Shown here piece by piece: positions 1 to 42,089 of a stretch of 64,000 nt of DNA. The notes beneath the pieces were generated by a model. The model did no database searches. It saw only the letters and a list, made by a program, of their open reading frames with translations, and had not been told where the DNA came from. The position numbers and the translations under genes were made by a program. The stretch is from Thiocapsa rosea (GTDB taxonomy: Bacteria > Pseudomonadota > Gammaproteobacteria > Chromatiales > Chromatiaceae), in assembly GCF_003634315.1 (NCBI RefSeq), contig NZ_RBXL01000001.1, forward strand, positions 4,878,501 to 4,942,500, written 5' to 3'. The number at the start of each line of letters is the position of its first letter. Positions within the stretch are counted from its first letter, which is position 1.

Positions 1-50
1 GAAGCCAAACGCAACATGAAAATGACGCATGTCGCTCTGGACGCGGTTTA
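1..50. repeat. Two-arm interspersed repeat, copy A (cut by window edge)
   Basis: Only the terminal 50 bases of one arm are inside the window. They end in GGACGCGGTTTA at 50 and closely match the end of copy G (19640-19693), including the ACGCAT...CGCTCTGGACGCGG stretch. The last three bases, read on the minus strand, are the TAA stop codon of bamA, so the gene ends inside the repeat. Confidence 0.8.
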
Positions 51-2381
51 GAAGGTTTGTCCGAAACCGAACTGGAAGACTTGGGTTTCGTCGCCCTCTT
101 CTTCGTTGAGCGGAGCCGCCAGACTGATCGAAAGGGCACCGATCGGCGACAGCCAGGTTGCCGAAACGCCCGCCGAATAGCGTAGAGCGCCGATATCGAA
201 ACCGGTGGGCTCGATGAGATTCGAGCCGTTGGTCTCCCACACGTTGCCGAAGTCCAGGAAGGCCCCGAGCCGCAGCGTCTTGCTCAGCTGTGGTCCACCC
301 GGCGCCGGCGCAAAGAGTTCGAGGCTACCGGCCATCCTGAAGTTACCGCCGACCGGATCGTCGTCGCCGACCTCGCGCGGGCCGAGCGAGTTGGCGACGA
401 AACCGCGCACGGACCGCGGACCGCCGGCGTAATAGTTTTCGAAGAAGGGCAGCGAGTCGGTCTCGCCGTAACCCTCGCCGTATCCGACATCGCCACTGAG
501 GGACACCACAAACCGGGAGGTCAGAGGGACGTAGAGCTGCTCCTGGTACGTCAGCTTATAGTATTGAAGATCGCTTCCGGGAACGGCGAGGTCTGCCCTG
601 AGCACGCGCAAGCCGCCCTTGGTCGGGAAGATCGCGGTATCTCGGCTGTCGTTCGTATAGCTTGCCGACAGGATAAAGTCATTGAAGACATTGCCGTTTT
701 CTTCAACGAACTGTTGCGCCAGCTCGGAAAAATTGCCGGCGATGAAGTTCGTATACTGATAGCGGACACCGAGACCGGCGCGGCTGGTCTCGGAGATGGG
801 CAGACCGAAGTTCATGCCCAACACGCCGACGTCGGTCGAGTAATCCGCACCGATCAGCTCATCGAAATCCGTTTCGCGATAGGAGATGTTGAACCCTCGA
901 CTGATACCGTCCACGGTATAGAAGGGGTTGGTATAGGCGATCTGATAGAGCTGGGTTGCTTGACTCGTGTTGACGCCGAACGAGACACGCTTACCGGTAC
1001 CCAGGAAATTGTTCTGCGTCACGCTGGCGTTGAACAAAATACCCTGCGACTGGGAGTAACCGACACCTGCCGAAAGATTTCCCGCGGGCTTCTCGGTCAC
1101 CGTCACATCGACATCGACTTGGTCGGCGGAACCGGGTACGGCGGGCGTCTCGATGGTGACGTTCTCGAAGTAACCCAGTCGCTGCAGCCGCTCGCGCGAC
1201 TTGCGGACCAGCTCGGCCGAGAACCAAGCCGACTCGAGCTGGCGCATCTCCCTGCGCAGGACCTCGTCGCGCGTTCGGGTATTCCCCTTCATGTTGACGC
1301 GACGCACATAGACGCGCTGTCCCGGGTCGACGAAGAAGGTCACCGTCACCGTGCGCGCCTCCTCGTCGATCTCGGGAATGGTGTTGACGTTCGCGAAGGC
1401 ATAACCGCGATCGCCGAGCAGGTTCGAGATCCGCTCCGCACTCTCGGTGGTCGCACGACGCGAGAAATAGTCGCCGCGCGCGAGCTGGATCAGAGGGAAC
1501 AGCTCCTCGGCCGGGATCGATGGCTCGCCTGCAAGCTTGATGTCGCCGATCCGGTAGGGTTCACCCTCGTCGATGACGACGGTGATATAGATCTCTTTCT
1601 TGTCGGCGCTGATGGAGACTTGCGTCGACTTGATGTCGAAACGAATGAAACCGCGATCCAGATAGAAGGAGCGCAGCGCCTCCAGATCACCGGCGAGCTT
1701 CTGCTTGGAGTACTGATCGTTCTTCGAATAGAAGGAGGTCCAGCCCGTCGAGCCGAGCTCGAAGCGCTTGAGCAGCTCCTTTTCGGGAAACGCCTCGTTG
1801 CCGATGATGGTGATCTGCTTGATCCGCGCCGTCAGCCCCTCGGTGATCTCGATGCGGACGGCGACGCGGTTTCGCTCGAGCGGCGAGACCGTTGACTGAA
1901 TCAGCACGCCGTATTTGCCGCGGGAGAAATACTGCCGCTCAAGCTCCTGCTCGATCCGATCGAGGACCGAACGATCGAAGACGCGGCCCTCCCTGAGCCC
2001 GATATCGGACAAGGCAGCCGTCAACGCCTTGGTGTCGATATCCCGATTGCCGGTGATGTCGATCGAGGCGATCGCCGGTCGCTCGCGGACCCACAGAACG
2101 AGGACGTTACCCTCGCGCTCGACGCGTACATCGTCGAAGAAACCGGTTTGGTAGAGCGAGCGAATAATGCCGCCGGTCACGCCGTCACCGACCGTGTCCC
2201 CGACCTGTACCGGCAGATAGTTGAAGACGGTACCGGGTGCGATCCGCTGCAGACCCTCCACGCGGATGTCGGCAATCTGGAACACCTCGGCCGCGACCGG
2301 CATGTTGATGGCCAGCAGGAGGGTCATCAGAGCGAGCTGCCGACGTGCGCAGCAACGGAGCATCAGAGGTATCGCGCGCAA
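48..2381 (-). CDS. bamA: Outer membrane protein assembly factor BamA
   Basis: Central subunit of the BAM complex that folds beta-barrel proteins into the outer membrane. The 777-residue product has a signal peptide (about residues 1-31, ending MPVAA), five POTRA repeats (starting near 34, 103, 184, 277 and 357, each with a typical 'I.GN' or 'V.G' turn) and a C-terminal 16-strand barrel from about 430. The loop-6 motif VRGF is present near residue 655 and the last residue is the Phe expected for a barrel. I take the TTG at 2381 as start because GAGGGG lies about 8 bases upstream; an ATG six codons later (2363) lacks such a site. It follows rseP by 79 bases, the usual gammaproteobacterial order. 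The stop codon is supplied by repeat copy A. BamA identity is very secure; the start is less so. Confidence 0.97.
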   Translation of the reverse strand: MRAIPLMLRCCARRQLALMTLLLAINMPVAAEVFQIADIRVEGLQRIAPGTVFNYLPVQVGDTVGDGVTGGIIRSLYQTGFFDDVRVEREGNVLVLWVRERPAIASIDITGNRDIDTKALTAALSDIGLREGRVFDRSVLDRIEQELERQYFSRGKYGVLIQSTVSPLERNRVAVRIEITEGLTARIKQITIIGNEAFPEKELLKRFELGSTGWTSFYSKNDQYSKQKLAGDLEALRSFYLDRGFIRFDIKSTQVSISADKKEIYITVVIDEGEPYRIGDIKLAGEPSIPAEELFPLIQLARGDYFSRRATTESAERISNLLGDRGYAFANVNTIPEIDEEARTVTVTFFVDPGQRVYVRRVNMKGNTRTRDEVLRREMRQLESAWFSAELVRKSRERLQRLGYFENVTIETPAVPGSADQVDVDVTVTEKPAGNLSAGVGYSQSQGILFNASVTQNNFLGTGKRVSFGVNTSQATQLYQIAYTNPFYTVDGISRGFNISYRETDFDELIGADYSTDVGVLGMNFGLPISETSRAGLGVRYQYTNFIAGNFSELAQQFVEENGNVFNDFILSASYTNDSRDTAIFPTKGGLRVLRADLAVPGSDLQYYKLTYQEQLYVPLTSRFVVSLSGDVGYGEGYGETDSLPFFENYYAGGPRSVRGFVANSLGPREVGDDDPVGGNFRMAGSLELFAPAPGGPQLSKTLRLGAFLDFGNVWETNGSNLIEPTGFDIGALRYSAGVSATWLSPIGALSISLAAPLNEEEGDETQVFQFGFGQTF

Positions 2382-2460
2382 GACAGGGTCCCCTCGATCA
2401 AGCCGAAGTCTGCGGCGCAGTCGGCGTTTCAGGGTGGCAAGTATAAGGGATTCCCCACGT

Positions 2461-3825: not shown

Positions 3826-3827
3826 CT

Positions 3828-4003
3828 TGAATCGCGTCCGGAGTGGTCGTTGAGGTTGAAGTTGCGGCCAATGACGACGGCCATCAACGGCAATCGGAGT
3901 AACGCGATTCAAGTCTTTATTTTTTCTTTCTTAAACCGTGTCGGCGGGGAGCAGGGACAGCCCCCTTTTCACGGCCACGGAATTCCGGTCCGGACGCGGT
4001 TTA
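3828..4003. repeat. Two-arm interspersed repeat, copy B (diverged)
   Basis: Between rseP and dxr. The first arm runs from TGAATCGCGTCC at 3828 to the matching CGCGATTCA near 3911; an A/T-rich linker follows (TCTTTATTTTTTC region); the second arm opens TTAAACCGTGTC near 3931 and closes GGACGCGGTTTA at 4003. The interiors differ more from the other copies than those copies differ among themselves, but the pairing ends are kept. The right end gives dxr its TAA stop codon, and the left end lies two bases before the rseP start. Confidence 0.7.
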
Positions 4004-7402: not shown

Positions 7403-8125
7403 TCAGTTCCCGCTTACGACCAAAGAGCCGACGTCTTCACCGCGGATCAACCGCAAGAGCGCACCGGGCTCGTTGATATTCATTACACGTAGTGGCATGC
7501 CGTGATCACGACACAGCACGATGGCCGTCGTGTCCATGACCTGCAGTCCTTCACGAAGCGCACGATCATAACTGATGCGAGGGTAGAAGGTCGCCCCCGG
7601 ATCGATCATCGGGTCGGCCGAGTAGATGCCGTCGACCTTGGTGGCCTTGATCAGCACATCCGCACCGACCTCGATCGCACGCAGGCTGGCGGCCGAGTCG
7701 GTCGTAAAAAACGGGTTGCCGGTCCCGGCGGCAAAGACGACCACGCGACCCTTATCGAGATGCCGCATCGCGCGCCGCCGGATGTAGTCCTCGCACACCT
7801 GATTGATCTTCAGCGCCGACATCACGCGCGCCGGGACACCCAGACGCTCGAGCGCATCCTGCATCGCCAGCCCGTTCATGACGGTCGCGAGCATCCCCAT
7901 CTGATCGCCGGTCACGCGGTCCATACCTTTGGCCGCAAGACCCGCTCCGCGAAAGATGTTCCCGCCACCGATCACCAGCGCCACCTGAACACCGACCGCC
8001 GCGAGATCGCGGATTTCACCGGCAAAGCGGTCCAGAACCTCCGGATCAATGCCGTAAGGCTCGGAGCCGACCAATGCCTCGCCGCTGAGCTTGAGCAGGA
8101 TGCGTCGATAAAGTGGCGCCGTCAT
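7403..8125 (-). CDS. pyrH: UMP kinase
   Basis: Phosphorylates UMP to UDP; a hexameric amino-acid-kinase-fold enzyme regulated by GTP and UTP. The 240-residue product begins with LLKLSGEAL and contains [10 protein letters not shown] and [17 protein letters not shown], all family hallmarks. It sits in the usual tsf-pyrH-frr order, but separated from tsf by 320 bases that are mostly repeat copy C, so it may have its own promoter in 8126-8257. Confidence 0.98.
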
Positions 8126-8257
8126 GGCAGGAGGACCTCGTCATGGTTTTGGTCGGAGAAGGCCGCGCGAGAGTCGCGCAGCCTTCGGGGCCCGGTCATC
8201 CGGATGGGGTCGTTTGGATGGCGTCGGGTCGCGTCGCGCCGATCGAATCGTGCAGCC

Positions 8258-8448
8258 TAAACCGCGTCCGGAGCGAGATGCTCTTTTCGAGTGGGTTCGA
8301 CGTTTGGTGCATCCACAACCCTTCGCGCGGACGCGGTTTAAAATGAACTGCTTTTAAAAAACTTTAAACCGCGCCAGCTCCAGCGTCCGTCAAGTCTCTC
8401 GGGCCGACCCCATCCAAAAACGTCGCATACCGCGCTGGGCGCGGTTTA
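8258..8448. repeat. Two-arm interspersed repeat, copy C (complete, 191 bp)
   Basis: Best-preserved reference copy. Arm 1 runs from TAAACCGCGTCC at 8258 to GGACGCGGTTTA near 8340. A/T-rich linker with TTTTAAAAAACTTT. Arm 2 opens TAAACCGCGCC near 8366 and closes GGGCGCGGTTTA at 8448. Arm interiors match copies D and J closely (for example GACGTTTGGTGCATCCACAA in arm 1). Located between tsf and pyrH; on the minus strand its last three bases are the tsf stop codon. Confidence 0.9.
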
Positions 8449-9333
8449 GGTCGAGCGAACCTGCGCCATGACCTCTTCGGCGAAGTTCTCGACCTTCTTC
8501 TCGATGCCCTCGCCGACCTCGACGCGCGCGAAACGGTGGACCTTCGCACCCGCCTGCTTCAGGAGCTTCTCCACGGAGGTGTCCGGATCCTTCACGAACG
8601 GCTGACCGAGCAGGGTCACCTCTTCGAGATACTTGCGCACGCGCCCGTCGATGATCTTGTCGACGATCGCCTCGGGTTTGCCGCTGTCGAGCGCTTGCGC
8701 CTTGAAGATCTCGCGCTCTTTGGCAAGCGTCTCGGGCGGAACCTCGTCGGCGCCGAGACACAGCGGGTTGGTCGCTGCGATATGCATCGCGATGTCGCGC
8801 CCGAGCGCCTCGTCGCCGCCGCTCATGTCGACCACGACGCCGATACGCACACCGTGCCGATAGCTGTAGAGACTGCCCTCGACAGCGTCGAAGCGCACCA
8901 AACGACGCACCTGGACATTCTCGCCGATCTTCGTGATCAGGGCTTCGCGAGCCTGATCGACGGTGCTCGCCGGGTCGTCGCAAAGGGCCGTCGCCGACAG
9001 GGACTCGGCATCGGCCATGTCCCCGGCGAGCGCCGTCGCGGCGGTTGACTGGGCAAAGCCGAGAAAATTGGTGTCCTTCGCCACGAAATCGGTTTCGCAG
9101 TTGATCTCGACCAAGACGCCGCGCTTGCCGTCGTGCGCGGTCTCGATCATGACGACGCCTTCGGCTGCCGTGCGACCGGACTTTTTCGCGGCCTTCGCCT
9201 GACCGGCTTTGCGCATCGCCTCGATGGCCGCCTCGATATCGCCGTCGGACTCCACCAGCGCCTTCTTGCACTCCATCATGCCGGCGCCGGTGCGCTCCCG
9301 GAGCTCTTTCACCAATGCCGCTGTAATCGCCAT
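8446..9333 (-). CDS. tsf: Elongation factor Ts
   Basis: Guanine nucleotide exchange factor for EF-Tu. The 295-residue product starts with a UBA-like domain (VKELRERTGAGMMECKKAL) and contains the nucleotide-exchange signature CETDFVAKD near residue 80. ATG at 9333 has AGGAAG about six bases upstream. It follows rpsB by 135 bases, in which a perfect hairpin lies (9384-9411). The TAA stop is contributed by repeat copy C. Confidence 0.98.
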   Translation of the reverse strand: MAITAALVKELRERTGAGMMECKKALVESDGDIEAAIEAMRKAGQAKAAKKSGRTAAEGVVMIETAHDGKRGVLVEINCETDFVAKDTNFLGFAQSTAATALAGDMADAESLSATALCDDPASTVDQAREALITKIGENVQVRRLVRFDAVEGSLYSYRHGVRIGVVVDMSGGDEALGRDIAMHIAATNPLCLGADEVPPETLAKEREIFKAQALDSGKPEAIVDKIIDGRVRKYLEEVTLLGQPFVKDPDTSVEKLLKQAGAKVHRFARVEVGEGIEKKVENFAEEVMAQVRST

Positions 9334-9383
9334 CGTTTGCTTCCTCGGTCCCTCGCGGGACGACTTCGGGTTGTACTGGATGC

Positions 9384-9411
9384 GTTCGCACCCGAGTGCT
9401 CGGGTGCGAAC
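9384..9411 (-). promoter_or_regulatory. Perfect 12-bp hairpin between rpsB and tsf
   Basis: GTTCGCACCCGA (9384-9395) and its exact reverse complement (9400-9411) surround a 4-base loop. It lies in the 135-base rpsB-tsf spacer. No T-run follows on the minus strand, so it is not a standard intrinsic terminator; it could attenuate or protect the message so that ribosomal protein S2 and EF-Ts are made in different amounts. Function is inferred from position only. Confidence 0.5.
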
Positions 9412-9468
9412 GGAGAATGGAGGCGCGCCCGGATCGGATCCGGAGCGCGCTCGGGTCGCGAAACCGCT

Positions 9469-10239
9469 CTACTGGGCTTCGGCAACAGCGCTCGGCGCCG
9501 ACTCGCTCTCGACAGGTGCGTCGATGAAGGTGTCGCCACGGCCGACCATGGCGGCTGCCGTATTGCGGCCGTCGAGGATCGCGTCCGCCGCGCCGCTGAT
9601 GTAGAGGCGCACTGCACGGATCGCGTCGTCGTTGCCCGGGATCACGTAGTCGACCTTGCTCGGATCATTGTTGGTATCGACCACGCCCACCACCGGGATA
9701 CCGAGCTTGTTGGCTTCGGTGACGGCGATCTTCTCGTGGCCCACATCGATCACGAACATGGCGTCCGGGAGGCCTTCCATGTCCTTGATGCCGCCGATGC
9801 TCTGCTCGAGCTTCGCGCGCTCACGCGCGAGACCCAGCGCCTCCTTCTTATTGAAGCGCTCGATCGTCCCTTCGGCGAACATCGTCTCGAGTTCCTTGAG
9901 GCGCTTGACCGAATGCCGGATGGTCTTGAAGTTGGTCAGCATGCCGCCGAGCCAGCGATGATTCACGAAGGGCATCCCGCAGCGCAGGGCCTCTTCCTGA
10001 ATCGCCTCGCGTGCCGCACGCTTGGTGCCGACAAAGAGAATACGGCCGCCGTTGGCCGTCAAGGAACCCATGAAGTTGACGGCCTCTTGGTAGAGCGGCA
10101 GCGTCTTTTCCAGGTTGACGATATGAATCTTGTTGCGTTGTCCGAAGATGAAGGCCCCCATCTTGGGGTTCCAGTAGCGGGTCTGGTGTCCGAAGTGGAC
10201 GCCCGCTTCCAACATCTGGCGCATGGTCACGTCGCTCAA
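9469..10239 (-). CDS. rpsB: 30S ribosomal protein S2
   Basis: Small-subunit protein needed for S1 binding. The product is 256 residues from the TTG at 10239, which gives the normal N-terminus ([19 protein letters not shown]) and has AGGAAG 8 bases upstream. The open frame extends 15 codons further, but that sequence is not S2-like. The S2 signatures are clear: [20 protein letters not shown], and [17 protein letters not shown] 260-base leader separates the gene from a plausible promoter near 10513-10542, consistent with the autogenous control known for rpsB. Confidence 0.97.
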
Positions 10240-10512
10240 GGTCTTGCTTCCTGTAAGTCTGGGTTGGGCCTCCACGCATCCCAAACGGCAACCTGTTCGG
10301 CAGGCACCCGGCCGGTTGTGTCGATGCGTGTGCGGACATTTTCCGGCGCCCGTGGATCGGGGCCGGTCTCGATTCGGCGCTGCCCGGCCCGGATCCTCCG
10401 GGACTTAGGCCAGATTTGGGGCCGGGCGTGGAGCCGATTGCGCGCAGGATCTCGGCAGCTCTTCGACGGGTCGAAAGCCCGACAGCAGCCGATTTGCCGC
10501 AGCGCGCCGGGT

Positions 10513-10542
10513 TTTATACCATAGCGCGTTCATTATGAGCAA
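10513..10542 (-). promoter_or_regulatory. Candidate sigma-70 promoter for rpsB-tsf
   Basis: On the minus strand TTGCTC (10542-10537) is followed after 18 bases by TATAAA (10518-10513). It is the most A/T-rich part of the 359-base rpsB-map divergent region (10240-10598). Transcription would start near 10505 and give a leader of about 265 bases. The hexamers match the consensus only partly; the opposite promoter for map was not resolved. Confidence 0.35.
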
Positions 10543-10598
10543 TTACCTCAAGGTTTTCTGTGAGATCCGGACCTGATGTCGATTCAGCGACGCACGCC

Positions 10599-11420
10599 AT
10601 GAGTGTGCCAATCAAGACCCCTGAGGCGATCGAAAAGATGCGCGTGGCGGGCCGGCTGGCGGCCGACGTTCTCGACATGATCGCCCCCCATGTCGTCCCG
10701 GGCGCGACGACGGACGAGCTCGACCGCATTTGCCACGACTATATGACGCGCGTCCAGCGGGCCATCCCGGCACCCTTGAACTACCGCGGCTTTCCCAGAT
10801 CCATCTGCACCTCCGTGAACCATCAGGTCTGCCACGGGATTCCGGGCAACAAGCGCCTCAAGAAAGGCGATATCGTCAACATCGACATCACCGTCATCAA
10901 GGACGGCTATCACGGCGATACGAGCAAGATGTTCTTCGTGGGCGAGCCCAGCATCCTGGCGCGTCGGCTCGTGACGGTCACGCAACAGGCGATGCGGCTC
11001 GGCATCGCGAAGGTGCGCCCCGGTGCGACCCTGGGGGACATCGGCCACGCGATCCAGCAGTTCGTCGAGGCACAGGGCTGCTCGGTGGTGCGCGAATATT
11101 GCGGGCACGGGATCGGTCAGGCGTTTCACGAAGAGCCGCAAGTGCTGCACTACGGCAAGCCCGGCGAAGGCTTGGTCCTGAAGGCGGGGATGTGCTTCAC
11201 CGTGGAGCCGATGGTCAATGCCGGCAAACGTTTCATCAAGCTGCTCCCGGACGGATGGACGGTCGTGACCAAAGATCGCAGTCTGTCGGCACAGTGGGAG
11301 CACACGGTTCTCGTCACCGATCAAGGGCATGAAATCCTGACCTTGCGCGCCGAGGAGCGCACCGACGAGCTCCCCGTCGACGAGGCCGATCCGACGCGCA
11401 ACATCGTCGCCCGCCCATGA
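10599..11420 (+). CDS. map: Methionine aminopeptidase, type I
   Basis: Removes the initiator methionine from nascent proteins. The 273-residue protein from the ATG at 10599 begins MSVPIKTPEAIEKMR as usual; the frame is open 13 codons upstream without homology. All five metal ligands of the pita-bread fold are visible: Asp in NIDITVI, Asp in GDTSKMF, His in CGHGIG, Glu in FTVEPM and Glu in WEHTVLV. It is divergent from rpsB and its stop overlaps the glnD start (ATGA), as in many gammaproteobacteria. Confidence 0.97.
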   Translation: MSVPIKTPEAIEKMRVAGRLAADVLDMIAPHVVPGATTDELDRICHDYMTRVQRAIPAPLNYRGFPRSICTSVNHQVCHGIPGNKRLKKGDIVNIDITVIKDGYHGDTSKMFFVGEPSILARRLVTVTQQAMRLGIAKVRPGATLGDIGHAIQQFVEAQGCSVVREYCGHGIGQAFHEEPQVLHYGKPGEGLVLKAGMCFTVEPMVNAGKRFIKLLPDGWTVVTKDRSLSAQWEHTVLVTDQGHEILTLRAEERTDELPVDEADPTRNIVARP

Positions 11421-14083
11421 ACACCGCACCGCGCCCGCACGCCTCGCCGAAGGAGGCCGTGGAGGCGAGGACGGCGGCCGATCCAATGGCGCTGATCGCC
11501 GATTGGAAGGGGCGCCTCAGAGCCGGGCGCGACCGACTCTTCGCAGACTTCGACCAAGGCGTACCGGTCGGGAGCCTGGTCCTGCAACGCAGTCTTCTCA
11601 TCGACGAGGTCCTGCGCGAGGTCTGGGACCATCACCTCGGCGAGACCGAAGACGCCGCCTTGGTCGCCGTCGGCGGATACGGTCGGCAGGAGCTCCAGCC
11701 CGCCTCCGACGTCGACATCCTGGTCATCGTCGAGGCCCATGCCGACGCGCGTCTTGCCGCGCCCCTGGAAGGGCTGGTGACCTGTCTGTGGGACATCGGC
11801 CTGGAGGTCGGGCACAGCGTGCGAACCTCCGAGGAGTGCGCGCGCGAGGCCGCGGACGACGTGACCGTCATGACCAACATGATGGAGGCGCGCCTGATCC
11901 GCGGCAGCAGTGCGCTGTGCTATCGGATGCGCGAGGTCGTCAGCCCCGAGCGCATGTGGGACAGCGAGCAGTTCTTCGCCGCCAAGACCCGGGAGCAACG
12001 CACGCGTTGGCAGAAGTACGGCGGCACCGCCTACAACCTCGAGCCCAACATCAAGGAAAACCCGGGCGGCTTGCGCGATATTCAGATGATCGGCTGGGTC
12101 GCCAAGCGCCACTTCGACGCGGAGACCCTGCACGAGCTGGTCGGTCACGGGTTCCTGACCGAATCGGAATACGGCACCCTGATCGAAGGGCAAACACTGC
12201 TGTGGCGAATCCGCTTCGCGCTGCACCGCATCGCCGGCCGACGCGAGGACCGCCTCCTGTTCGAGTATCAGCGGACCCTCGCCACCCAGTTCGGCTTCGA
12301 AGACGGGGCGAACAACCTCGCCGTCGAGCAGTTCATGCAGCAATACTATCGCACCGTCCAGGAGCTCAATCGGCTCAACGAGATGCTGCTGCAGTTGTTT
12401 CGCGAGGCGATTCTTCTGCATGACGACATCGGCCCCCCGGTCCCGGTCAACAAACGCTTCCAGTCACGCAGCGGCTATCTCGAGGTGACCTCGGCGAGCG
12501 TCTTCCAGCGCTACCCGATCGCCCTCCTCGAGATCTTTCACGTCCTTCAGGTCCACCCACAGCTCGAGGGCGTACGCGCCAGTACCATCCGGCTGATCCG
12601 CGAGAACCGCCACCGGATCGACGACGACTTCCGCGCCGATCTGCGCGCGCGCAGTCTCTTCATGGAGATCCTGCGTCACCCCAGCGGGCTCACCCATGCG
12701 ATACGCCGCATGAACCGTTACGGCGTGCTGGCCGCCTACATCCCGGCATTCGCCAACATCGTCGGACGCATGCAGTACGATCTCCTGCACGTCTACACGG
12801 TCGACGAGCACACGCTGTCGCTCCTGCGCAATCTGCGCCGCTTCACCGTCACCAAGCACGACGACGAGTTCCCGCTCTGCAGCGCGATCGCTCGCCGAAT
12901 CCCCAAGCTCGAGCTCCTGTATCTCGCCGGTCTCTTCCACGACATCGCCAAGGGGCGCGGCGGAGACCATTCACTGCTCGGTGCCGACGACGCCCGCGTC
13001 TTCTGTCGGCTCCACGAGCTGCCCGAGTTCGACAGCCGTCTCGTCGGTTGGCTGGTGGAGAAACACCTGCTGATGTCGATGACGGCCCAGCGCAAGGACA
13101 TCAGCGATCCGGAGGTCATCCAGGCCTTCGCCGCCGTCGTCGGCGACACGACACGCTTGGATTATCTCTATCTGTTGACGGTGGCGGATGCCCGGGCGAC
13201 CAATCCCGAGCGCTGGAACAGCTGGAAGGACGCGCTGCTGCGCGAGCTGTATCACGGAACACGCCGTGCGCTGCTGCGCGGACTCGAGAATCCTCAAGCC
13301 CAGGACGAGCTGATCCAGCAAAAACAGACCGAGGCTCGGCGCCTGGTCGCGCGCTACGGCGGAGACCCCGCCGCCTGCAATCGGCTCTGGAACAAGTTCA
13401 GCCAGGATCTGTTCCTGCACAACTCACCCGACGAGATCGCCTGGCAGACGCGCCAGATCCTCGCCTGCGAGCCCGAGCAGCTGCCGCTCGTGGTCATTCG
13501 CCCGGTCACTGCGCGCGGAGGGACCGAGATCTTCATCTATACGACCGATCGCGCGAACCTCTTCGGACGCATCACCGCGCTCCTGGATCAGGTCGGCCTC
13601 AACATCATGGACGCACGCATCATGACCACCGATGGCGGAATGGCGGTCAACACCTACCAGGTGCTGGACCAGGACGGCAGTCCGATCCACGACACCTTGC
13701 GGATGGAAGAGATTCGATCCTGCCTGGTCGAGGATCTCGCCGAGGACGCCGGGGAGGAGATCCAAGTCGCACGTTCGATGCCGAGGCGCCACCGGTATTT
13801 TCCCACGGAGACGCGCGTGACCTTTTCCACCGACGAGCCGAACCGCCGCACCATCATGCGGCTCGCCACCCTGGATCGCCCCGGCCTGCTCGCAGAGGTC
13901 GGCGCGGTCTTCCAGGATTGCGGCATCCGTCTTCAGAACGCCAAGATCGCCACGGTCGGCGCCGAGGTCGACGATGTCTTCTTCATCACCAACGGCGATG
14001 AAACCCCCATCACCTGCGAGACCGCACTATCCTGCTTGCGACGCGAGATCCACGATCGGTTGGAAGGCCATGGGACGCGCTGA
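11417..14083 (+). CDS. glnD: Bifunctional uridylyltransferase/uridylyl-removing enzyme GlnD
   Basis: Nitrogen sensor that uridylylates PII when glutamine is low and removes UMP when it is high. The 888-residue protein has the nucleotidyltransferase motif GGYGRQELQP (from residue 86) with catalytic Asp98/Asp100, a central HD domain with HDIAKGRGGDHS for deuridylylation, and two C-terminal ACT domains (about 700 and 810) that bind glutamine. Starts in the ATGA overlap with map. The end overlaps the next gene by 14 bases. Confidence 0.97.
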   Translation: MNTAPRPHASPKEAVEARTAADPMALIADWKGRLRAGRDRLFADFDQGVPVGSLVLQRSLLIDEVLREVWDHHLGETEDAALVAVGGYGRQELQPASDVDILVIVEAHADARLAAPLEGLVTCLWDIGLEVGHSVRTSEECAREAADDVTVMTNMMEARLIRGSSALCYRMREVVSPERMWDSEQFFAAKTREQRTRWQKYGGTAYNLEPNIKENPGGLRDIQMIGWVAKRHFDAETLHELVGHGFLTESEYGTLIEGQTLLWRIRFALHRIAGRREDRLLFEYQRTLATQFGFEDGANNLAVEQFMQQYYRTVQELNRLNEMLLQLFREAILLHDDIGPPVPVNKRFQSRSGYLEVTSASVFQRYPIALLEIFHVLQVHPQLEGVRASTIRLIRENRHRIDDDFRADLRARSLFMEILRHPSGLTHAIRRMNRYGVLAAYIPAFANIVGRMQYDLLHVYTVDEHTLSLLRNLRRFTVTKHDDEFPLCSAIARRIPKLELLYLAGLFHDIAKGRGGDHSLLGADDARVFCRLHELPEFDSRLVGWLVEKHLLMSMTAQRKDISDPEVIQAFAAVVGDTTRLDYLYLLTVADARATNPERWNSWKDALLRELYHGTRRALLRGLENPQAQDELIQQKQTEARRLVARYGGDPAACNRLWNKFSQDLFLHNSPDEIAWQTRQILACEPEQLPLVVIRPVTARGGTEIFIYTTDRANLFGRITALLDQVGLNIMDARIMTTDGGMAVNTYQVLDQDGSPIHDTLRMEEIRSCLVEDLAEDAGEEIQVARSMPRRHRYFPTETRVTFSTDEPNRRTIMRLATLDRPGLLAEVGAVFQDCGIRLQNAKIATVGAEVDDVFFITNGDETPITCETALSCLRREIHDRLEGHGTR

Positions 14084-14624
14084 CCCTCGCACTGCCGACG
14101 GACTCGGCGTGCCGACACACGGAAAGGTCGCGAAGGTCGGCGCCGCAGCGTTGCTCCTCGGACTCCTGTCGATCACCGCCGCCATCCCAGCCGACGAGAG
14201 CTTCTTCGCGCCCATCCAGTCGGTCAGCCAGACCCTCGGCGACCCTCCTCCCGGGAGCGCGCCGACGCCCTGGCTCGACGAGGTGCGCGCCCAGCGACAA
14301 GCCTGGGAGGCCAGACGGGACGCGACGCGAAACGCCTACGAGGCGCGTCGGTGGGCCAACAACCCAAGGGCGGCCGCCCAGCAGGAGGCGTGGGAAGAGG
14401 ATGTACGCCGACGGCGCGCCGCACGTCTCGAACGCATGGAGCAGGAGCTGGAGATCTTTCGCAGCCTCGGTCCAGGGCAGCCGCCGCTACCCTGGCCGTG
14501 GGTTACCGGGATGCCAACCCTGCCGGAGTTCGGCAGCGGCCCGGCGACATCGGGCACTCCGGGCGACACGCCGATCTACGCGCCGCCCGGCTGGGACAAC
14601 CATTGGTATTTCAGAGGATTTTAA
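14070..14624 (+). CDS. Hypothetical exported or membrane-anchored protein, Trp/Arg-rich
   Basis: I do not recognise this 184-residue protein. The ATG at 14070 has GGAAGG just upstream and overlaps glnD by 14 bases, so co-expression is likely. Residues 20-41 form one hydrophobic segment ending AAIPA, a signal peptide or anchor. Residues about 65-125 are a charged helical stretch rich in Arg, Glu, Gln and Trp; then comes a Pro/Trp-rich part (PPLPWPW) and a C-terminus DNHWYFRGF with aromatic residues. The stop codon is the first triplet of repeat copy D. Probably a periplasmic or envelope protein; no function can be assigned. Confidence 0.7.
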   Translation: MGRADPRTADGLGVPTHGKVAKVGAAALLLGLLSITAAIPADESFFAPIQSVSQTLGDPPPGSAPTPWLDEVRAQRQAWEARRDATRNAYEARRWANNPRAAAQQEAWEEDVRRRRAARLERMEQELEIFRSLGPGQPPLPWPWVTGMPTLPEFGSGPATSGTPGDTPIYAPPGWDNHWYFRGF

Positions 14625-14813
14625 ACCGCGTCCAAGAGCGAGATGCTCATTTCCGAGTGTGCTCGACGTTTGGTGCACCCACAACCCTTAGCGGGGACGC
14701 GGTTTAAAAAACAGATTTTTTAATATCTTAAACAGCGCCAATTCCAACCTTCGTCAAGTCTGCCGGGGCCGATCCCATCCAAAAACATCGCATACCGCGC
14801 TGGGCGCTGTTTA
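14622..14813. repeat. Two-arm interspersed repeat, copy D (complete)
   Basis: Arm 1 from TAAACCGCGTCC (14622) to GGACGCGGTTTA (about 14706); linker with ACAGATTTTTTAATATC; arm 2 from TTAAACAGCGCC (about 14729) to GGGCGCTGTTTA (14813). Note the paired change: arm 2 has CAGCG at its left end and CGCTG at its right end where other copies have CCGCG and CGCGG, so base pairing is preserved. Supplies the stop codon of the upstream hypothetical gene. Confidence 0.9.
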
Positions 14814-14841
14814 AGGTCGGACGATGGCGCGGATCGACAGC

Positions 14842-15216
14842 TTACTCCGCGTCGATCAGCTCGAGCGCATTGCCGTCCGGATCGCGACAAAAGAGCGCGC
14901 GCCGACCCGAGCGGCTGAGGGTATATGGGAGACCTGCAGCCTCGAGCCGCCCGGTGATCGCGTCCAGGCTGCTCACCCGCATCGCGAGATGGCGGTCGCG
15001 GCCGCCGTGCTCGGGACGGCCCGCAACCGGATCCGGGTTCGGCAGCTCGAGCAGGTGGATCTGCCGATCGCCGACCCAAAGCCACGCCCCCGGAAAGGAC
15101 AGATCCGGACGCTCGGGAGCAAGCTCAAGCTCCAAAATCCCTTGATAGAACGCAAGCGCCCGAGCGGTATCGGAGACAATCAAACTGACATGATGGATGG
15201 AGCGGACCAGCGGCAT
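14842..15216 (-). CDS. VOC (glyoxalase/bleomycin resistance) family protein
   Basis: Small 124-residue metal-dependent fold protein. It opens SIHHVSLIVSDTARALAFYQ, the standard first beta-alpha-beta unit, and ends RDPDGNALELIDAE, which carries the usual metal-binding Glu of the second unit. GAGGGGGA lies four bases before the ATG at 15216, so the start is firm although the frame is open much further upstream (antisense to dapC). Close in type to lactoylglutathione-lyase-like and catechol-dioxygenase-like VOC proteins; the substrate cannot be read from sequence. It is divergent from dapC. Confidence 0.88.
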   Translation of the reverse strand: MPLVRSIHHVSLIVSDTARALAFYQGILELELAPERPDLSFPGAWLWVGDRQIHLLELPNPDPVAGRPEHGGRDRHLAMRVSSLDAITGRLEAAGLPYTLSRSGRRALFCRDPDGNALELIDAE

Positions 15217-15285
15217 CGGATCCCCCTCGGCATGGAGCCGGCTTGGACGTTCGCCTATACTATACCGCCAACTCAGGATGACCCG

Positions 15286-16509
15286 ATGAACCCGGATATC
15301 GGGCGCTTGCAGCCCTACCCTTTTGAACGACTCGCCGCGCTGAAGAGCGGACTGATCCCGCCGGCCGATCGTGACCACATCGCGCTCTCCATCGGCGAGC
15401 CGAAACATCCGACCCCGGCGCTCGTCACGGATGCGCTGATCGCGCACCTGCATCAGCTCTCCGTCTACCCGACGACGCGCGGCATCCCGGCCCTGCGCGA
15501 AACGATCGCGGCCTGGCTCTCGAAGCGATTCAAGCTCGGGTCGGTCGACTCGACGGGGACAGGCGCGCTCGGCATCGACCCGGACACGCAGATCCTGCCG
15601 GTGAACGGCACACGCGAGGCACTCTTTGCCTTCGCCCAAGCGGTGATCGATCGCTCGCGGGACGCGCTGGTCTTGATGCCCAATCCCTTTTATCAGATCT
15701 ACGAGGGCGCTGCCTTTCTGGCCGGTGCACAGCCGCGCTATCTCGCCTGCGACGCGACGAACGGTTTCGTCCCGGATTTCGAGGCGGTCGACGATGCGAC
15801 CTGGCGGGACTGCCGCCTGCTCTATATCTGCTCGCCTGGCAACCCGACCGGGGCTCTGCTCGATCATGCAACCTATGCCCGCCTCATCGCTCTTGCGCAC
15901 CGCCACGACTTCGTCATCGCCTCGGATGAATGCTACTCCGAGCTCTACCTGGACGAGGCCGACCCGCCGCTCGGGTTGCTCCAGGTCTCGGCTGCCATCG
16001 GCAACGCCGCATTCAGTCGCTGCATCGTCTTCCATAGCCTCTCGAAGCGCTCCAATGCGCCGGGCCTGCGCTCGGGGTTCGTTGCGGGCGATGCCGAGCT
16101 GATCCGCGACTTCTTTGCCTACCGGACCTATCACGGCTGCGCCATGCCCCTACCCCATCAGCAGGCGAGCATCGCAGCCTGGAGCGACGAGGCCCATGTG
16201 CGGGAGAATCGACGGCTGTATCGCGAGAAGTTCGACGCGGTCCTGGAGATTCTCGGGGACGCGCTTGCTCTTGCGCCGCCGAAGGCCGGCTTCTATCTGT
16301 GGCCCGAGACACCGATCCCGGACACCGACTTCGCCGCGCGCCTCTTCGCCGAGGAAAATCTGACGGTGCTTCCCGGCCGCTTCCTGTCCCGTGTGGTCGA
16401 CGGAGCCGACCCGGGGATGAACCGCATCCGGCTTGCCCTGGTCCCGCCGCTCGATGAGTGCGTGGACGCTGCGCATCGGATCCGACGCTGCCTGGAGCGG
16501 ATCCAATAG
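15286..16509 (+). CDS. dapC: Succinyldiaminopimelate transaminase
   Basis: PLP-dependent class I aminotransferase converting N-succinyl-2-amino-6-ketopimelate to N-succinyl-LL-DAP in lysine and peptidoglycan synthesis. The 407-residue product begins NPDIGRLQPYPFERL, typical of DapC. The PLP lysine lies in SLSKRSNAPGLRSGF; CSPGNPTG and SDECYSELY are also present. ATG at 15286 has AGGA about nine bases upstream. dapD follows after 94 bases, which supports the DapC assignment over other class I enzymes. Confidence 0.93.
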   Translation: MNPDIGRLQPYPFERLAALKSGLIPPADRDHIALSIGEPKHPTPALVTDALIAHLHQLSVYPTTRGIPALRETIAAWLSKRFKLGSVDSTGTGALGIDPDTQILPVNGTREALFAFAQAVIDRSRDALVLMPNPFYQIYEGAAFLAGAQPRYLACDATNGFVPDFEAVDDATWRDCRLLYICSPGNPTGALLDHATYARLIALAHRHDFVIASDECYSELYLDEADPPLGLLQVSAAIGNAAFSRCIVFHSLSKRSNAPGLRSGFVAGDAELIRDFFAYRTYHGCAMPLPHQQASIAAWSDEAHVRENRRLYREKFDAVLEILGDALALAPPKAGFYLWPETPIPDTDFAARLFAEENLTVLPGRFLSRVVDGADPGMNRIRLALVPPLDECVDAAHRIRRCLERIQ

Positions 16510-16603
16510 CCTTGTTTTCACTTGAGCCTTTCGCGCCTTTGCGATTCACATTCCCGAGACCTGCGTTTCCCGAGGTCTTCAACACGACAGCAGAGAACAC
16601 CTC

Positions 16604-17425
16604 ATGAGCGACCAGCAATCCATCATTGAAGAGGCCTTCGAGCGACGCGCCGAGATCACCCCGCGCACGGTCGAGACCCGCGTGCGCGACGCCGTGCAGG
16701 ACACCATCGAGCGGCTCGATCGCGGGGAGCTGCGCGTCGCCGAGAAGCGCGACGGCGATTGGGTCGTCCACGAATGGCTCAAGAAGGCGGTCCTGCTGTC
16801 GTTCCGGATCGAGGACAACGCCTTCATCAAGGGCGGTTTCACCAACTACTACGACAAGGTCGCGTCCAAGTTCGCCGACACCAACTCGCGCGAGTTCCGC
16901 GACGGCGGCGTGCGGGTCGTGCCTCCGGCGACCGCGCGCAAAGGCGCCTACATCGCACCGAGCTGCGTGCTCATGCCCTCCTACGTCAACATCGGTGCCT
17001 ATGTCGACTCCGGCACCATGGTCGACACCTGGGCGACCGTCGGCTCCTGTGCGCAGATCGGCAAGAACGTGCATCTCTCGGGCGGTGTCGGGATCGGCGG
17101 TGTGCTCGAGCCGGTGCAGGCCGCGCCGACCATCATCGAGGACAACTGCTTCATCGGCGCACGCTCGGAAGTCGTCGAAGGTGTGATCGTCGGCGAGGGT
17201 GCCGTGCTGTCGATGGGCGTCTACATCGGTCAGAGCACCAAGATCTACAACCGCGAGACCGGCGAGATCCTCTACGGCCGCGTCCCGCCCGGCGCCGTCG
17301 TCGTGCCCGGCAGTCTCCCGGCCAAGGACGGAAGCCACAGCCTCTACTGCGCCGTCATCATCAAGCAGGTCGACGAGAAGACCCGCGGAAAGGTCGGCAT
17401 CAACGAGCTGCTTCGGGATATCTAA
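16604..17425 (+). CDS. dapD: 2,3,4,5-tetrahydropyridine-2,6-dicarboxylate N-succinyltransferase
   Basis: Transfers succinyl from succinyl-CoA to tetrahydrodipicolinate, the entry to the succinylase branch of DAP synthesis. The 273-residue length matches the family. The middle of the protein is a left-handed beta-helix with hexapeptide repeats (for example [18 protein letters not shown] and VGIGGVLEP). The stop TAA is the first triplet of repeat copy E, which then separates dapD from yffB-dapE. Confidence 0.97.
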
Positions 17426-17613
17426 ACCGCGTCCAGAGCGAGATGCGTCGTTTTCATTGTTCGTTTAGCTTCGGAGATATCCTTGATCCCAGTGAGACGC
17501 GGTTTAGAATCTAAGATTTTTAATACTTTAAACCGCGCCGGCTCCGACAGTCGTCGGAGCCGGCGCGGCCAAGCCATCCACCAAATGACGCATACCGCAC
17601 CGGGCGCGGTTTA
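17423..17613. repeat. Two-arm interspersed repeat, copy E (complete, 191 bp)
   Basis: Arm 1 from TAAACCGCGTCC (17423) to GACGCGGTTTA (about 17507); linker TCTAAGATTTTTAATAC; arm 2 TTAAACCGCGCC to GGGCGCGGTTTA (17613). Arm 2 contains an additional inner hairpin, CCGGCTCCGACAG / the near-complement GTCGGAGCCGG. The interior belongs to a different subtype than C, D and J and matches copy G in reverse orientation. The GTG start of yffB is only six bases beyond its right end. Confidence 0.9.
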
Positions 17614-17618
17614 AAGAC

Positions 17619-19099
<1,481 letters not shown>

Positions 19100-19102
<3 letters not shown>

Positions 19103-19290
19103 ACCGCGTCCGGGGCGACATGGAATGTATCAGTTTGGCTCGACCCTGCGGGGGTCAACAACGCCGGCGGTAGACGCGGTTCAGAATTTTTATTCTTCAA
19201 TACCTTAAACCGCGCAGACTCCGACTCTCACCGAATGTGCCGAGGCTGATCCAACCCAAAACCATCGCATACCGCGTCAGGCGCGGTTTA
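19100..19290. repeat. Two-arm interspersed repeat, copy F (complete, 191 bp)
   Basis: Arm 1 is TGAACCGCGTCC ... GACGCGGTTCA: both ends carry the same change relative to TAAACC/GGTTTA, so the pairing is kept. Linker GAATTTTTATTCTTCAATACC, arm 2 TTAAACCGCGC ... GGCGCGGTTTA ending at 19290. The changed left end still provides a stop codon, TGA, for dapE. It ends 12 bases before the tautomerase start. Confidence 0.88.
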
Positions 19291-19302
19291 ACGGAGATCG
19301 AC

Positions 19303-19503
19303 ATGCCCTACGTCAACATCAAGATCACCCGCGAGGGTGCGACCGCGGAGCAGAAGGCGGCACTCATCCAGGGCGTCACACAGCTGCTGGTCGACGTGCT
19401 CGGGAAGAATCCGCAGACGACGATGGTCGTCATCGACGAGGTGGAGACCGACAACTGGGGCATCGGCGGGGAGAGCGTGACGCTGCGGCGCCGCCGAGAG
19501 TAA
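19303..19503 (+). CDS. 4-oxalocrotonate tautomerase family protein
   Basis: 66-residue member of the tautomerase superfamily. Catalytic Pro follows the initiator Met (MPYVNIKITREG), as required after Met removal. GGAG lies eight bases before the ATG at 19303. The C-terminal NWGIGGESVTLRRRRE resembles chromosomal housekeeping-type homologues of unknown substrate. The gene is isolated between two repeats: copy F in front and copy G at its 3' end, where the TAA stop is the start of the repeat. Confidence 0.9.
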   Translation: MPYVNIKITREGATAEQKAALIQGVTQLLVDVLGKNPQTTMVVIDEVETDNWGIGGESVTLRRRRE

Positions 19504-19693
19504 GCCACGCCCGGTGCGGTATGCGTCATTTGCGGGAGTGGATTGGCCGCGCCAGCTCCGACGACTTTCGGAGCTGGCGCGGCTTAAAGTCTTAAAAAAG
19601 CTTAAATTCTAAACCGCGTCTCACGGGAATCAAGGATATTTCCGAAGCCAAACGCACACTGAAAACAACGCATATCGCTCTGGACGCGGTTTA
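19501..19693. repeat. Two-arm interspersed repeat, copy G (complete, inverted)
   Basis: Same subtype as copy E but in the opposite orientation: arm 2 comes first (TAAGCCACGCCC at 19501 to GGCGCGGCTTA near 19587, with an inner hairpin CCAGCTCCGA.../...TCGGAGCTGG), then A/T-rich linker, then arm 1 (TAAACCGCGTCTCAC to GGACGCGGTTTA at 19693). It supplies stop codons at both ends: TAA for the tautomerase on the plus strand and TAA for the Uma2 gene on the minus strand. Confidence 0.88.
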
Positions 19694-20254: not shown

Positions 20255-20291
20255 CGCTGTCGCTCCGCTGGGTTTAAATCAACGATTAACC

Positions 20292-21442: not shown

Positions 21443-21510
21443 CGGGGGCTCCTTGTGGCATGTTCTCGCCATTGTCACCCATCCCCCGCCCCGACTGAAA
21501 GGACCGACCG

Positions 21511-22821
21511 ATGCAAGCCGAGCTTCTGATCCATGCCCAGTGGGTATTACCCGTCGATCCCCGGGATCGCCAGCTCACCGATCATGCGGTTGCGATCGCG
21601 GACGGGCGTATCCTCGCCGTGCTGCCGTCCGAGGAGGCGCGCAGCAGTATCGACGCCCAACGGGTGATCGATCTGCCGGGGCACCTGCTCATCCCGGGCC
21701 TGATCAATGCGCACACCCACGCGGCCATGGTGCTGATGCGGGGGCTGGCCGACGACCTGCCCCTCATGACCTGGCTGCATGAGCATATCTGGCCGGCCGA
21801 GCAGCGTTGGGTGGATCCCGCGTTCGTCGCCGACGGGACCCGGCTGGCCGTGCTCGAGATGCTGCGCGGCGGCATCACCTGCTACAACGACATGTATTTC
21901 TATCCGGAGGTCACCGCACAGGTGAGCGCCGAGGCCGGGATGCGGGCCGTGATCGGCATGATCGTCGTGGATTTCCCCACCGGCTATGCCGCGAGTGCCG
22001 ACGAATACATCGCCAAGGGGCTCGCCCTGCACGAGCACTATCGGGACCATCCGTTGATCCGAGTGGCCTTTGCGCCGCACTCACCCTACGCGGTATCGGA
22101 TGCACCGTTGCAACGCGTGCGCGCGCTTGCCGACGAGCTGGAGGTTCCGATCCATATCCATCTCCACGAGACACGCGACGAGATCCTCCAGTCGCTGCGC
22201 GACCACGGCGAGCGGCCTATCTCGCGACTGAATCGCCTCGGATTGCTCGGCCCCGGACTGGTGTGTGTCCACATGACCCAGCTCGAGGAGGACGAGATCG
22301 CCCTCTTGGCCGACACCGGTGCCCATGTGGTGCATTGTCCGGAATCGAATCTGAAGCTCGCGAGCGGGTTTTGCCCGGTCGCAAAACTCTTGGAGGCAGG
22401 GGTCAATGTCGCGATCGGCACCGACGGTGCAGCAAGCAACAATGATCTGAACATGCTTGGAGAGATGCGCACGACCGCCCTGCTCGGCAAGGGGGTGGCA
22501 GGCTCGGCCTCCGCGCTGCCGGCCGCGACCGCACTGCGGATGGCGACGATCAACGGCGCCAGAGCGCTGGGATTGGAGGATGAGATCGGCTCGCTGGAGC
22601 CTGGGAAATCAGCAGACTTGGTCGCGCTCGATCTGCGCGACTCCCACACCCAGCCCCTTTATCACCCCGTCTCGCAACTGGTCTACGCGGCCAGTCAGCA
22701 ACAGGTGCGTCAGGTTTGGGTGCGGGGTCGCCACTTGATCCGCGACGCTCTACCGACCGGGCTGGACAACGCTCGGATCATCGCTGCGGCACAGACCTGG
22801 GGCGAGCGTCTCGGTCGCTAA
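21511..22821 (+). CDS. mtaD: 5-methylthioadenosine/S-adenosylhomocysteine deaminase (TRZ/ATZ family)
   Basis: Amidohydrolase of 436 residues. Metal-binding [29 protein letters not shown] and the [14 protein letters not shown] segment are all intact. Family members deaminate MTA and SAH to the inosyl forms; the divergent mtnA next door supports that role over triazine or guanine hydrolases. Exact substrate preference is inferred. The spacer of 68 bases to mtnA must hold both promoters. TAA stop is the first triplet of repeat copy I. Confidence 0.88.
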
Positions 22822-22902
22822 ACCGCGTCCGAACGACCTGGATCCGTTTCGAGCAGACTCCGCCTTCGACCAACCCTTGGGCGCCGCGGCAGACGCGGTT
22901 TA
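22819..22902. repeat. Single-arm interspersed repeat, copy I, shared by two convergent genes
   Basis: One 84-bp arm, TAAACCGCGTCC (22819) to GACGCGGTTTA (22902), fills the entire gap between convergent mtaD and rlpA. Its first triplet is the mtaD stop; its last triplet, read on the minus strand, is the rlpA stop. The symmetrical ends would form a hairpin at the 3' end of either transcript, so a role as a bidirectional 3'-end structure is plausible. Confidence 0.88.
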
Positions 22903-23340
22903 GAAGAGATCCATGAGAACGCGTTCGGCATCGGCGAGGGCGATGGTCTTCCCGGTAAGCCGGGAGGGACTGCCCGAGTCGACGACCTCCAGACTCACCG
23001 GGGCAACGCCTCTGGCCAACATCCCGATCTCCTTGGCGGCCGCCTTCGAGAGGTCGATCGTACGGCCACGTGAGAAGGGGCCTCGATCGTTGATGACGAC
23101 GTCGACCGAACGTCCGTTCGCCTTATTCGTCACCGTCACCCGGGTACCGAACTCGAGGGTCCGATGCGCCGCGGTCAAGGCATTTTTGTCGAACCGGACA
23201 CCGCTGGCGGTGCGCCGCCCGTCGAAACGATCTCCGTAGTAAGAAGCCACGCCATCCGTGACATTGGCCTGAAGGGTTGCCGTGGGAAGAAACGCCAACA
23301 TTGCGAGCGCTGGGGTCAACCAGATGTACCGTCGAATCAA
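22900..23340 (-). CDS. rlpA: Short RlpA-like septal/lytic transglycosylase domain protein
   Basis: 146-residue secreted protein. From the TTG at 23340 (GGAG about nine bases upstream) it has a signal peptide (LIRRYIWLTPALAMLAFL... ending LQA) followed by a double-psi beta-barrel: GVASYYGDRFDGRRTASG, then VINDRGPFSRGRTIDLS with the catalytic-type Asp. Unlike E. coli RlpA it has no SPOR domain, so septal targeting through denuded glycan cannot be assumed. The frame extends upstream, but without homology. Confidence 0.85.
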   Translation of the reverse strand: MIRRYIWLTPALAMLAFLPTATLQANVTDGVASYYGDRFDGRRTASGVRFDKNALTAAHRTLEFGTRVTVTNKANGRSVDVVINDRGPFSRGRTIDLSKAAAKEIGMLARGVAPVSLEVVDSGSPSRLTGKTIALADAERVLMDLF

Positions 23341-39906: not shown

Positions 39907-39930
39907 ACGCGTTTCCACGCCGCAGTACCT

Positions 39931-41719: not shown

Positions 41720-41900
41720 AGGATGGACCTCGATCCTCGTCGGGCCACGATGCCCGCACGGATATTCGATCTGAATTAGGCCGGCGTCGGCCCGGCCTGT
41801 CGCGAAAGTTCCGAGTATAATGCCCGCCACCGGCAGGCGATACGACAAGGCCCCGTCTCGACGACGTCAGGTTTGCGCTAGCCCCGTGGGCGACCCCACT

Positions 41901-42089
41901 TCAACCGCGTCCAGAGCGAGATGCTGACTTTCGAGTGAGTTCGACGTTTGGTGCATCCACAACATTTAGCGGGGACGCGGTTTAACATGCTATTTTTAAT
42001 AGTTTAAACCGCGCCGGCTCCAACGGTCGTCAAGTCTGCCGGGGCCGATCCCATCCGAAAACAACGCATACCGCGCCGGGCGCGGTTTA
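41901..42089. repeat. Two-arm interspersed repeat, copy J (complete)
   Basis: Arm 1 from TCAACCGCGTCC (41901) to GGACGCGGTTTA near 41984; linker ACATGCTATTTTTAATAG; arm 2 from TTTAAACCGCGCC to GGGCGCGGTTTA (42089). Same subtype as C and D (GACGTTTGGTGCATCCACAA is shared with C). Unusual in that it lies between divergent genes, ffh and ypjD, and contributes no stop codon; it begins 182 bases from the ffh start and ends 19 before the ypjD start. Confidence 0.88.

Follow-up and report, generated by a model that had tools for sequence, protein, structure and literature searches.

The 64,000-nucleotide stretch of the Thiocapsa rosea genome analysed here (GCF_003634315.1, contig NZ_RBXL01000001.1, positions 4,878,501-4,942,500 of the forward strand; called the window, with its own coordinates used throughout) contains an interspersed repeat of about 190 bp whose ends often double as the stop codons of neighbouring genes. 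This repeat is very probably a non-autonomous miniature inverted-repeat transposable element (MITE) of the IS630/Tc1-mariner type, targeting the TA of the sequence YTAR, where Y is C or T and R is A or G. It has the properties expected of such elements, namely short, dispersed copies in large number, a 2-bp target duplication, and terminal inverted repeats shared with IS630 elements of four other genomes. Since YTAR reads as TAA or TAG on either strand, the target offers the simplest account of the overlap between repeat ends and gene stops.

Chance is excluded as the origin of the repeat's abundance. In the genome, of 6.11 Mb, there are 1581 occurrences of TAAACCGCG and 52 of the same word reversed; for the 25-base outer end, with up to two mismatches allowed, there are 801 matches and none for the reversed control. 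Arms were also sought in 844 kb of sampled DNA, made up of 19 chromosome-spaced stretches of 20 kb and a 464-kb block that includes the window; a twentieth stretch, L047, overlaps the block and was excluded. With arm length restricted to 80-92 bp, the sample yields 84 elements, of which 50 are single arms and 32 are pairs, with one triple and one quadruple besides; the reversed sequence yields 5. On a sample that still included L047 the same filter gave 91 elements and the unfiltered search 102, compared with 5 and 9 respectively in the reversed sequence. Two of the 84 elements lie within called genes and are probably false; they are counted in the 84 and left out of the 82 intergenic copies referred to below. 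Genes were called with our own caller, which is blind to the repeat, and called genes cover 77% of the 464-kb block.

A pair measures about 191 bp, which bears out the arrangement of arm, A/T-rich linker and arm that an earlier note on this DNA had given for full copies of about 190 bp. An arm of 83-86 bp is followed by a linker of 19-24 bp (32 sampled pairs) and by a second, inverted arm, the G+C content of the linker being 17% (36 pairs, four of them counted twice), and single arms measure 84-86 bp. The same note had described the ends as common to the copies. They are indeed shared, and the description can be refined, since the arms form an inverted pair in which TAAACCGCGYCCRGNGCGRNATGCGNNNTTT, about 31 bp long, is common to the 64 outer ends of the 32 pairs, and the inner ends agree mainly over their first 11 bases. 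Each arm folds as a hairpin closed by the same end sequence, and the whole pair can form one long hairpin, with folding z-scores of -7.9 for copy E of the window (copies are lettered as in Table 1) and of -0.8 to -6.4 for nine single arms. In fact, 96.8% of stem cells are paired in 119 distinct arms, compared with 92.3% in 500 shuffles, and compensated double changes between copies were found in 32 cells, compared with 3.9 in the shuffles (pair 10 omitted). Mean pair identity is 0.71 in this genome, 0.86 in G043 and 0.79 in G057, the shuffled value being 0.49.

Single arms and pairs can stand at the same site in different genomes, as was seen in five comparisons. In three of them (two for element 23, and T. 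marina against copy C) the single arm matches the pair's second arm, and in the two at copy I it resembles, by eye, the pair's first arm. This pattern fits a deletion between direct copies of the arm-closing end sequence, which would yield single arms of 84-86 bp; both the direction and the route of this change are inferred. Furthermore, single arms and larger elements both lie largely on the same target, YTAR being found at 80 of 94 singles and at 57 of 65 larger elements when three relatives are included. As a separate observation, five arms are clustered in L037 at 669-1238. Two of them have a TA in common, so that arms may have been joined end to end by insertion into the terminal TA of one another.

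The movement of the repeat is borne out by empty sites in relatives, contrary to the possibility, raised in the earlier note, that the repeats do not move. Among 261 comparisons of an element with a relative in which both flanks could be mapped, 66 were empty-sized, and in 57 of these the gap was exactly -2, which fits a 2-bp duplication; the relative's dinucleotide in those 57 was TA in 36, TG in 9, TC in 6, GA in 5 and CA in 1. These rows are not independent, since in our grouping they come from 13 apparent sites, two of which (33 and 45) are decayed copies, leaving about 11. TA was present in at least one relative at 6 of the 11 sites, and 5 of those 6 have flush flanks. The empty sites and the flanks show insertion at the TA of YTAR, with duplication of the TA.

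The empty sites also bear on the stop codons. At five of them (elements 18, 22, 30, 31 and 32, which include tsf, the hypothetical gene and dapD) the relative's called gene already stops at the target dinucleotide, the sequences being CTAA, TTAG, CTAC (TAG on the minus strand) or CTGA. The site of copy C is empty in T. bogorovii (G004), whose tsf ends with TAG at the same TA; that of copy D is empty in five relatives, with CTAA in one and CTGA in four; and that of copy E reads CTAA in G004, KS1 (G009) and UBA6158 (L063) and CTGA in G006. Thus the claim that the element can land at a gene's end and replace the stop without loss finds support in five cases where the relative's gene ends at the same place. 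Copy G is a sixth stop-associated empty site, and the remaining five lie away from stops. At copy G, in relatives without the element, the plus-strand gene stops 6 nt beyond the site and the minus-strand gene 6 nt short of it; G004 carries the element, yet keeps the old minus-strand stop 6 nt before it. Here the gene ends have shifted by two codons, which means that stop overlap can also arise after insertion. An insertion before a gene start was seen as well: in KS1 (L060, 7569-7651), T. marina (L062, 7332-7414) and S07.Bin152 (L061, 7384-7466), the likely start of an aminotransferase gene is preceded, at a distance of a few tens of bases, by a single arm, a 5' insertion whose site is empty in the window genome (about 15266, CTAT).

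The likely source family of the repeat consists of elements of 1274-1277 bp that have matching ends and encode an IS630-family transposase (NF033545, 155 bits against a cut-off of 100). Intact ones (L147, L271, L272 and L273, and also L317 and L318) match the outer consensus at 22-25 of 26 bases at both ends and have TA on both sides, compared with a maximum of 15-18 of 26 in 20 shuffles of one locus. A 1277-bp element, with ends of 22 and 24 of 26, is present in G007, a genus mate with no excess of the repeat, and the IS630 copy of that genome sits in the stop codon of a restriction-subunit-like gene. Moreover, relatives of the transposase with 73-89% identity occur in three other genera (G160, G073 and G129) within elements of the same size and ends (22-25 of 26). 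The outer inverted ends TAAACCGCGYCCRGNGCGRNATGCGNNNTTT of the repeat are, on this reading, those of an IS630 subfamily found in other genomes and not found in this one. The outer end itself is present in 25 of 146 sampled genomes and is patchy in the family, with counts of 79 to 331 in G043, G057, G153 and G162, of 132 to 801 in five Thiocapsa genomes, and of 5 in the genus mate G006. In G014, from a genus without repeat excess, the IS630 that carries these terminal repeats is represented by upwards of twelve ends (L301-L315), many of them at contig ends.

These elements were reached by reading 30 of the 48 DDE_3 places in the genus, a longer head having singled out L147 among noise-like near matches; three more places of the window genome were read as well. 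Two other candidates were set aside. Among 21 DDE_Tnp_1 places, one (L260) is flanked by a repeat end and, on its opposite side, by a pair; we take this for neighbouring insertions because two other copies of the same 608-residue frame (L267 and L268) have no repeats. In KS1, a 1316-bp bracket (joined stretch 138963-140278) consists of a repeat head and a poor partner end around a different, 355-residue transposase-like frame, and is probably due to chance. A search with the DDE_Tnp_1_2 profile gave no match.

With respect to the target, YTAR was found at 73 of the 84 copies, their first TA being preceded by C or T and their last followed by A or G; all four forms occur, and CTAG is the commonest (31 of 84). 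The preference holds away from stop codons, since among copies neither at stops nor in genes YTAR was found at 35 of 41, compared with 716 of 3737 noncoding TAs that carry no element. It was also found at 17 of 17 and 29 of 29 loci of two other genera, where a gene stop coincides exactly with an end at 5 and 11 loci respectively, although these loci lean to well-kept copies because they were selected by their intact outer end. In the present sample, a gene stop falls exactly at an end in 41 of the 82 intergenic copies, and at both ends in six; if every noncoding or stop TA were equal, 3.8 would be expected. Insertion at the TA of a stop codon yields TA followed by A, which is a stop again, and this from both sides. 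The first inner base being A, insertion into a TAA or TAG stop regenerates TAA from either side, as is seen at the five sites described above. In G057, several copies lie at the centre of almost palindromic flanking sequence, caggat-TA-atcctg for example, as though some other palindromic repeat or hairpin had served as a target (Table 1).

It might be supposed that the transposition machinery truly recognises stop codons, terminating ribosomes or transcription, as could be suggested by the 41 overlaps and by the sharp bias towards 3' ends. We consider this very unlikely. YTAR sites are filled alike at stop codons (38 of 136) and at 1-30 nt downstream (14 of 49), so that the stop as such need not be recognised, and IS630 copies sharing these ends lie for the most part in other places. 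Filling then drops to 4 of 87 at 31-100 nt and 4 of 116 at 101-400 nt after a stop, and is 9 of 182 within 150 nt upstream of genes, 0 of 299 in genes and 4 of 317 in other noncoding DNA, where some of the distant unfilled sites may fall within uncalled genes. Of the suggestion that the element recognises sequence around stop codons, the part that survives is therefore the existence of a sequence target, YTAR; recognition of the stop itself is not needed, and some overlaps, as at copy G, are secondary. An origin as REP/BIME elements moved by a RAYT (Y1_Tnp) transposase can scarcely be entertained. The inverted hairpin pairs, the high copy number and nine Y1_Tnp matches in the genome would agree with it, but the TA duplication and the long terminal inverted repeats matching IS630 ends would not, REP/BIME elements not being known to duplicate their target. 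In addition, at the nine Y1_Tnp places a complete arm was seen once, in L052, together with some matches to one end alone at up to two mismatches; none of them brackets the gene. A role as bidirectional intrinsic transcription terminators is also unlikely as an explanation of the repeat. The hairpins adjoin an A/T-rich linker, and elements are found in 22 of 94 convergent gaps compared with 7 of 85 divergent ones; nevertheless, a terminator scan of 8001-23000, which allowed loops of 3-8 only, gave 9 sites where 8.4 were expected by chance, no T-run directly follows the stem in the 20 linkers examined, and the single arms have no linker.

The target alone falls short of explaining how closely the copies crowd behind gene 3' ends. 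In convergent gaps, the filled YTAR sites number 21 of 67 up to 30 nt, 0 of 38 between 31 and 120 nt and 1 of 110 at greater distance, and three relatives gave 24 of 90, 1 of 43 and 1 of 113 over the same distance classes. Counted per gene end, filling is 43 of 142 at the stop, 14 of 29 at 1-15 nt, 4 of 24 at 16-30 nt and 2 of 33 at 31-60 nt. That copies are found mainly some 15-30 nt or less from gene 3' ends may perhaps mean that insertion there does least harm, or perhaps that the hairpin is retained for a role at mRNA 3' ends. The latter idea, compatible with a MITE origin, would make the copies domesticated hairpins kept by selection; a hairpin in the mRNA that begins at the stop codon or shortly behind it would stand in the way of 3' exonucleases or delay the ribosome at termination. 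It is a tentative possibility, suggested by sequence comparison, and the fall-off with distance just described would agree with it. In fact, stems diverge more slowly than loops (0.042 against 0.122, with linkers at 0.106) in relatives not used for finding the elements (17 elements, 58 non-independent pairs), stems also changed less than flanks in a cruder count that still includes in-gene matches (0.073 against 0.107), and the stems covary between copies as described above. IS630 copies with the same ends have a stop 0-30 nt away at 4 of 27 ends, compared with 67 of 168 for the repeats (Fisher p 0.016), a comparison that crosses genera, includes 15 one-sided contig ends and uses the Thiocapsa codon table; IS630 copies being rarer near stops than repeats is what would be expected if the position is selected rather than chosen. 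Furthermore, passages of PMC12306157 report that REPs at most 15 nt from a stop stall E. coli ribosomes, which makes the fall-off near 15 nt worth testing. Nevertheless, between relatives 58 one-sided stem changes break or restore a pair, 19 keep one and only 8 are compensated. The covariation between copies could also stem from source copies or from hairpin-templated repair, and such repair could slow stem divergence as well.

Returning to the MITE interpretation, a number of results weigh against it or limit its reach. At five of the about 11 empty sites no relative seen has TA, the dinucleotide being TT, CA, TC, TG or GA instead; three of these five align poorly at the junction, and all five require earlier or later point changes. 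Eleven of the 84 copies lie off YTAR, three of them at stop codons, two at 1-30 nt after a stop, two inside genes and four elsewhere. None of seven DDE_3 places in the window genome has matching ends, the best reaching 17 of 26, and the closest matches of this genome to the transposase are 26% identical; movement in trans by an IS630 transposase of the L147 type is putative. Moreover, least harm fails to account for the fall-off with distance within convergent gaps, where no promoter needs protecting.

Several known families resemble the repeat, by description and not by sequence. According to passages of PMC2229807, RUP (tied to IS630-Spn1), Correia/NEMIS and ERIC are likewise shorter than 200 bp, encode no protein, carry TA at both ends and terminal inverted repeats, duplicate their target and fold into long stem-loops. 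The repeat described here differs from them in its two hairpin arms, each closed by the terminal sequence, and its A/T-rich linker, in the single arms at the same sites, and in the frequent stop overlap through YTAR. CIR of Caulobacter and Brucella are described in the same source as also having two hairpin arms, a linker and TA ends, and as not found inside genes, but they are set apart, again by description and not by sequence, by their length of about 110 bp, a GANTC motif and a mobility mechanism given as unknown. In Streptococcus pneumoniae, BOX repeats are reported to encode the stop of 36 genes, and SPRITE repeats crowd near the 3' ends of genes, where they may have been recruited as terminators (PMC3049150); in the passages at hand the BOX stops are not tied to a target sequence, unlike the YTAR of the repeat, which is again likened by description and not by sequence. 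REP/BIME elements share inverted hairpin pairs and high copy number with it (PMC2817692, in part), and REPs within 15 nt of a stop have been reported to affect translation (PMC12306157, in part), but the repeat has IS630-type ends and a TA duplication, with no bracketed RAYT among the nine Y1_Tnp places. In this context, the autonomous IS630 of Shigella is stated to prefer TA within CTAG (Tenzen and Ohtsubo 1991, by its title as cited in PMC2170065), while the repeat uses all four YTAR forms with CTAG the commonest.

Among the literature matches listed, no published repeat family of this sort from Thiocapsa or Chromatiaceae was found. The earlier note's remark that no named family has this structure therefore stands as regards this family, no description of which was found; it does not stand as regards the kind, since TA-duplicating MITEs of the IS630 type are known and IS630 elements with matching ends exist. 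What seems to be new is the combination of a two-arm MITE, its link with a subfamily of IS630, and the explanation of stop overlap by the YTAR target. Hundreds of gene ends come within reach at little cost when the target is a stop codon read both ways and insertion rebuilds the stop. The analysis also connects a repeat with no source found in the genome that carries it to a subfamily of IS630 in other genomes, and provides many natural cases of a stop codon within a stable stem, useful for the study of translation termination and mRNA 3' ends. As a speculation, which we put forward with considerable doubt, a transposon whose target contains a stop on both strands may have placed hairpins, whose first base pairs include the stop codon, at hundreds of gene 3' ends in several genera of purple sulfur bacteria, and after loss of the transposase these might have been kept as genome-wide 3' elements tuning ribosome release or mRNA decay.

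In the window, all ten copies reported in the earlier note were found again at their coordinates (Table 1), and independent, repeat-blind gene calling returned the same eleven gene stops on repeat ends. The gene names agree with Pfam for nine of the eleven; the hypothetical gene has no match, and the tautomerase was omitted from the Pfam scan. The first arm of copy B, with limits read from the sequence, ends in TGAATCGCG and CGCGATTCA and retains its pairing, while the second arm is short. In copy F the first arm has TGA..TCA ends, both sides having changed, and at copy J the left flank is altered, which leaves the target uncertain.

Table 1. Copies of the repeat in the window, with the gene stops on their ends, and palindrome-flanked copies in G057
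Copy	Coordinates	Structure	Gene stops and same-site forms	Stop position on repeat end
A	1-50	right part of a single 84-bp arm starting 34 bases before the window	bamA (-), stop 48-50	48
B	3828-4003	decayed pair, arms 3828-3911 and 3932-4003, T-rich linker 3912-3931	dxr (-), stop 4001-4003	4001
C	8258-8448	pair, 8258-8340 / 8365-8448	tsf (-), stop 8446-8448	8446
D	14622-14813	pair, 14622-14706 / 14729-14813	hypothetical gene (184 residues), stop 14622-14624	14624
E	17423-17613	pair, 17423-17506 / 17529-17613	dapD, stop 17423-17425	17425
F	19100-19290	pair, 19100-19183 / 19206-19290	dapE, stop TGA 19100-19102	19102
G	19501-19693	pair, 19501-19586 / 19610-19693	tautomerase (+) and Uma2 (-), both stopping on ends	19503, 19691
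H	20292-20377	single arm	mtnA (-), stop 20375-20377; KS1 has a longer two-arm form at the same site	20375
I	22819-22902	single arm	between convergent mtaD and rlpA, both stopping on the arm; pair in G004 and G009	22821, 22900
J	41901-42089	pair, 41901-41984 / 42005-42089	divergent gap; no called gene stop	
G057, L347	1642-1833	palindrome-flanked		
G057, L350	3086-3169	palindrome-flanked		
G057, L357	1767-1959	palindrome-flanked		
G057, L359	7730-7922	palindrome-flanked		
G057, L360	1739-1931	palindrome-flanked		

An Rfam scan of the window at the gathering threshold matched no family to the repeat and returned only two tRNAs and a t44 RNA (RF00127, 65 bits). The t44 RNA lies at 10263-10352 on the minus strand, near the start of the minus-strand gene before tsf, which is presumably where an rpsB leader would be expected.

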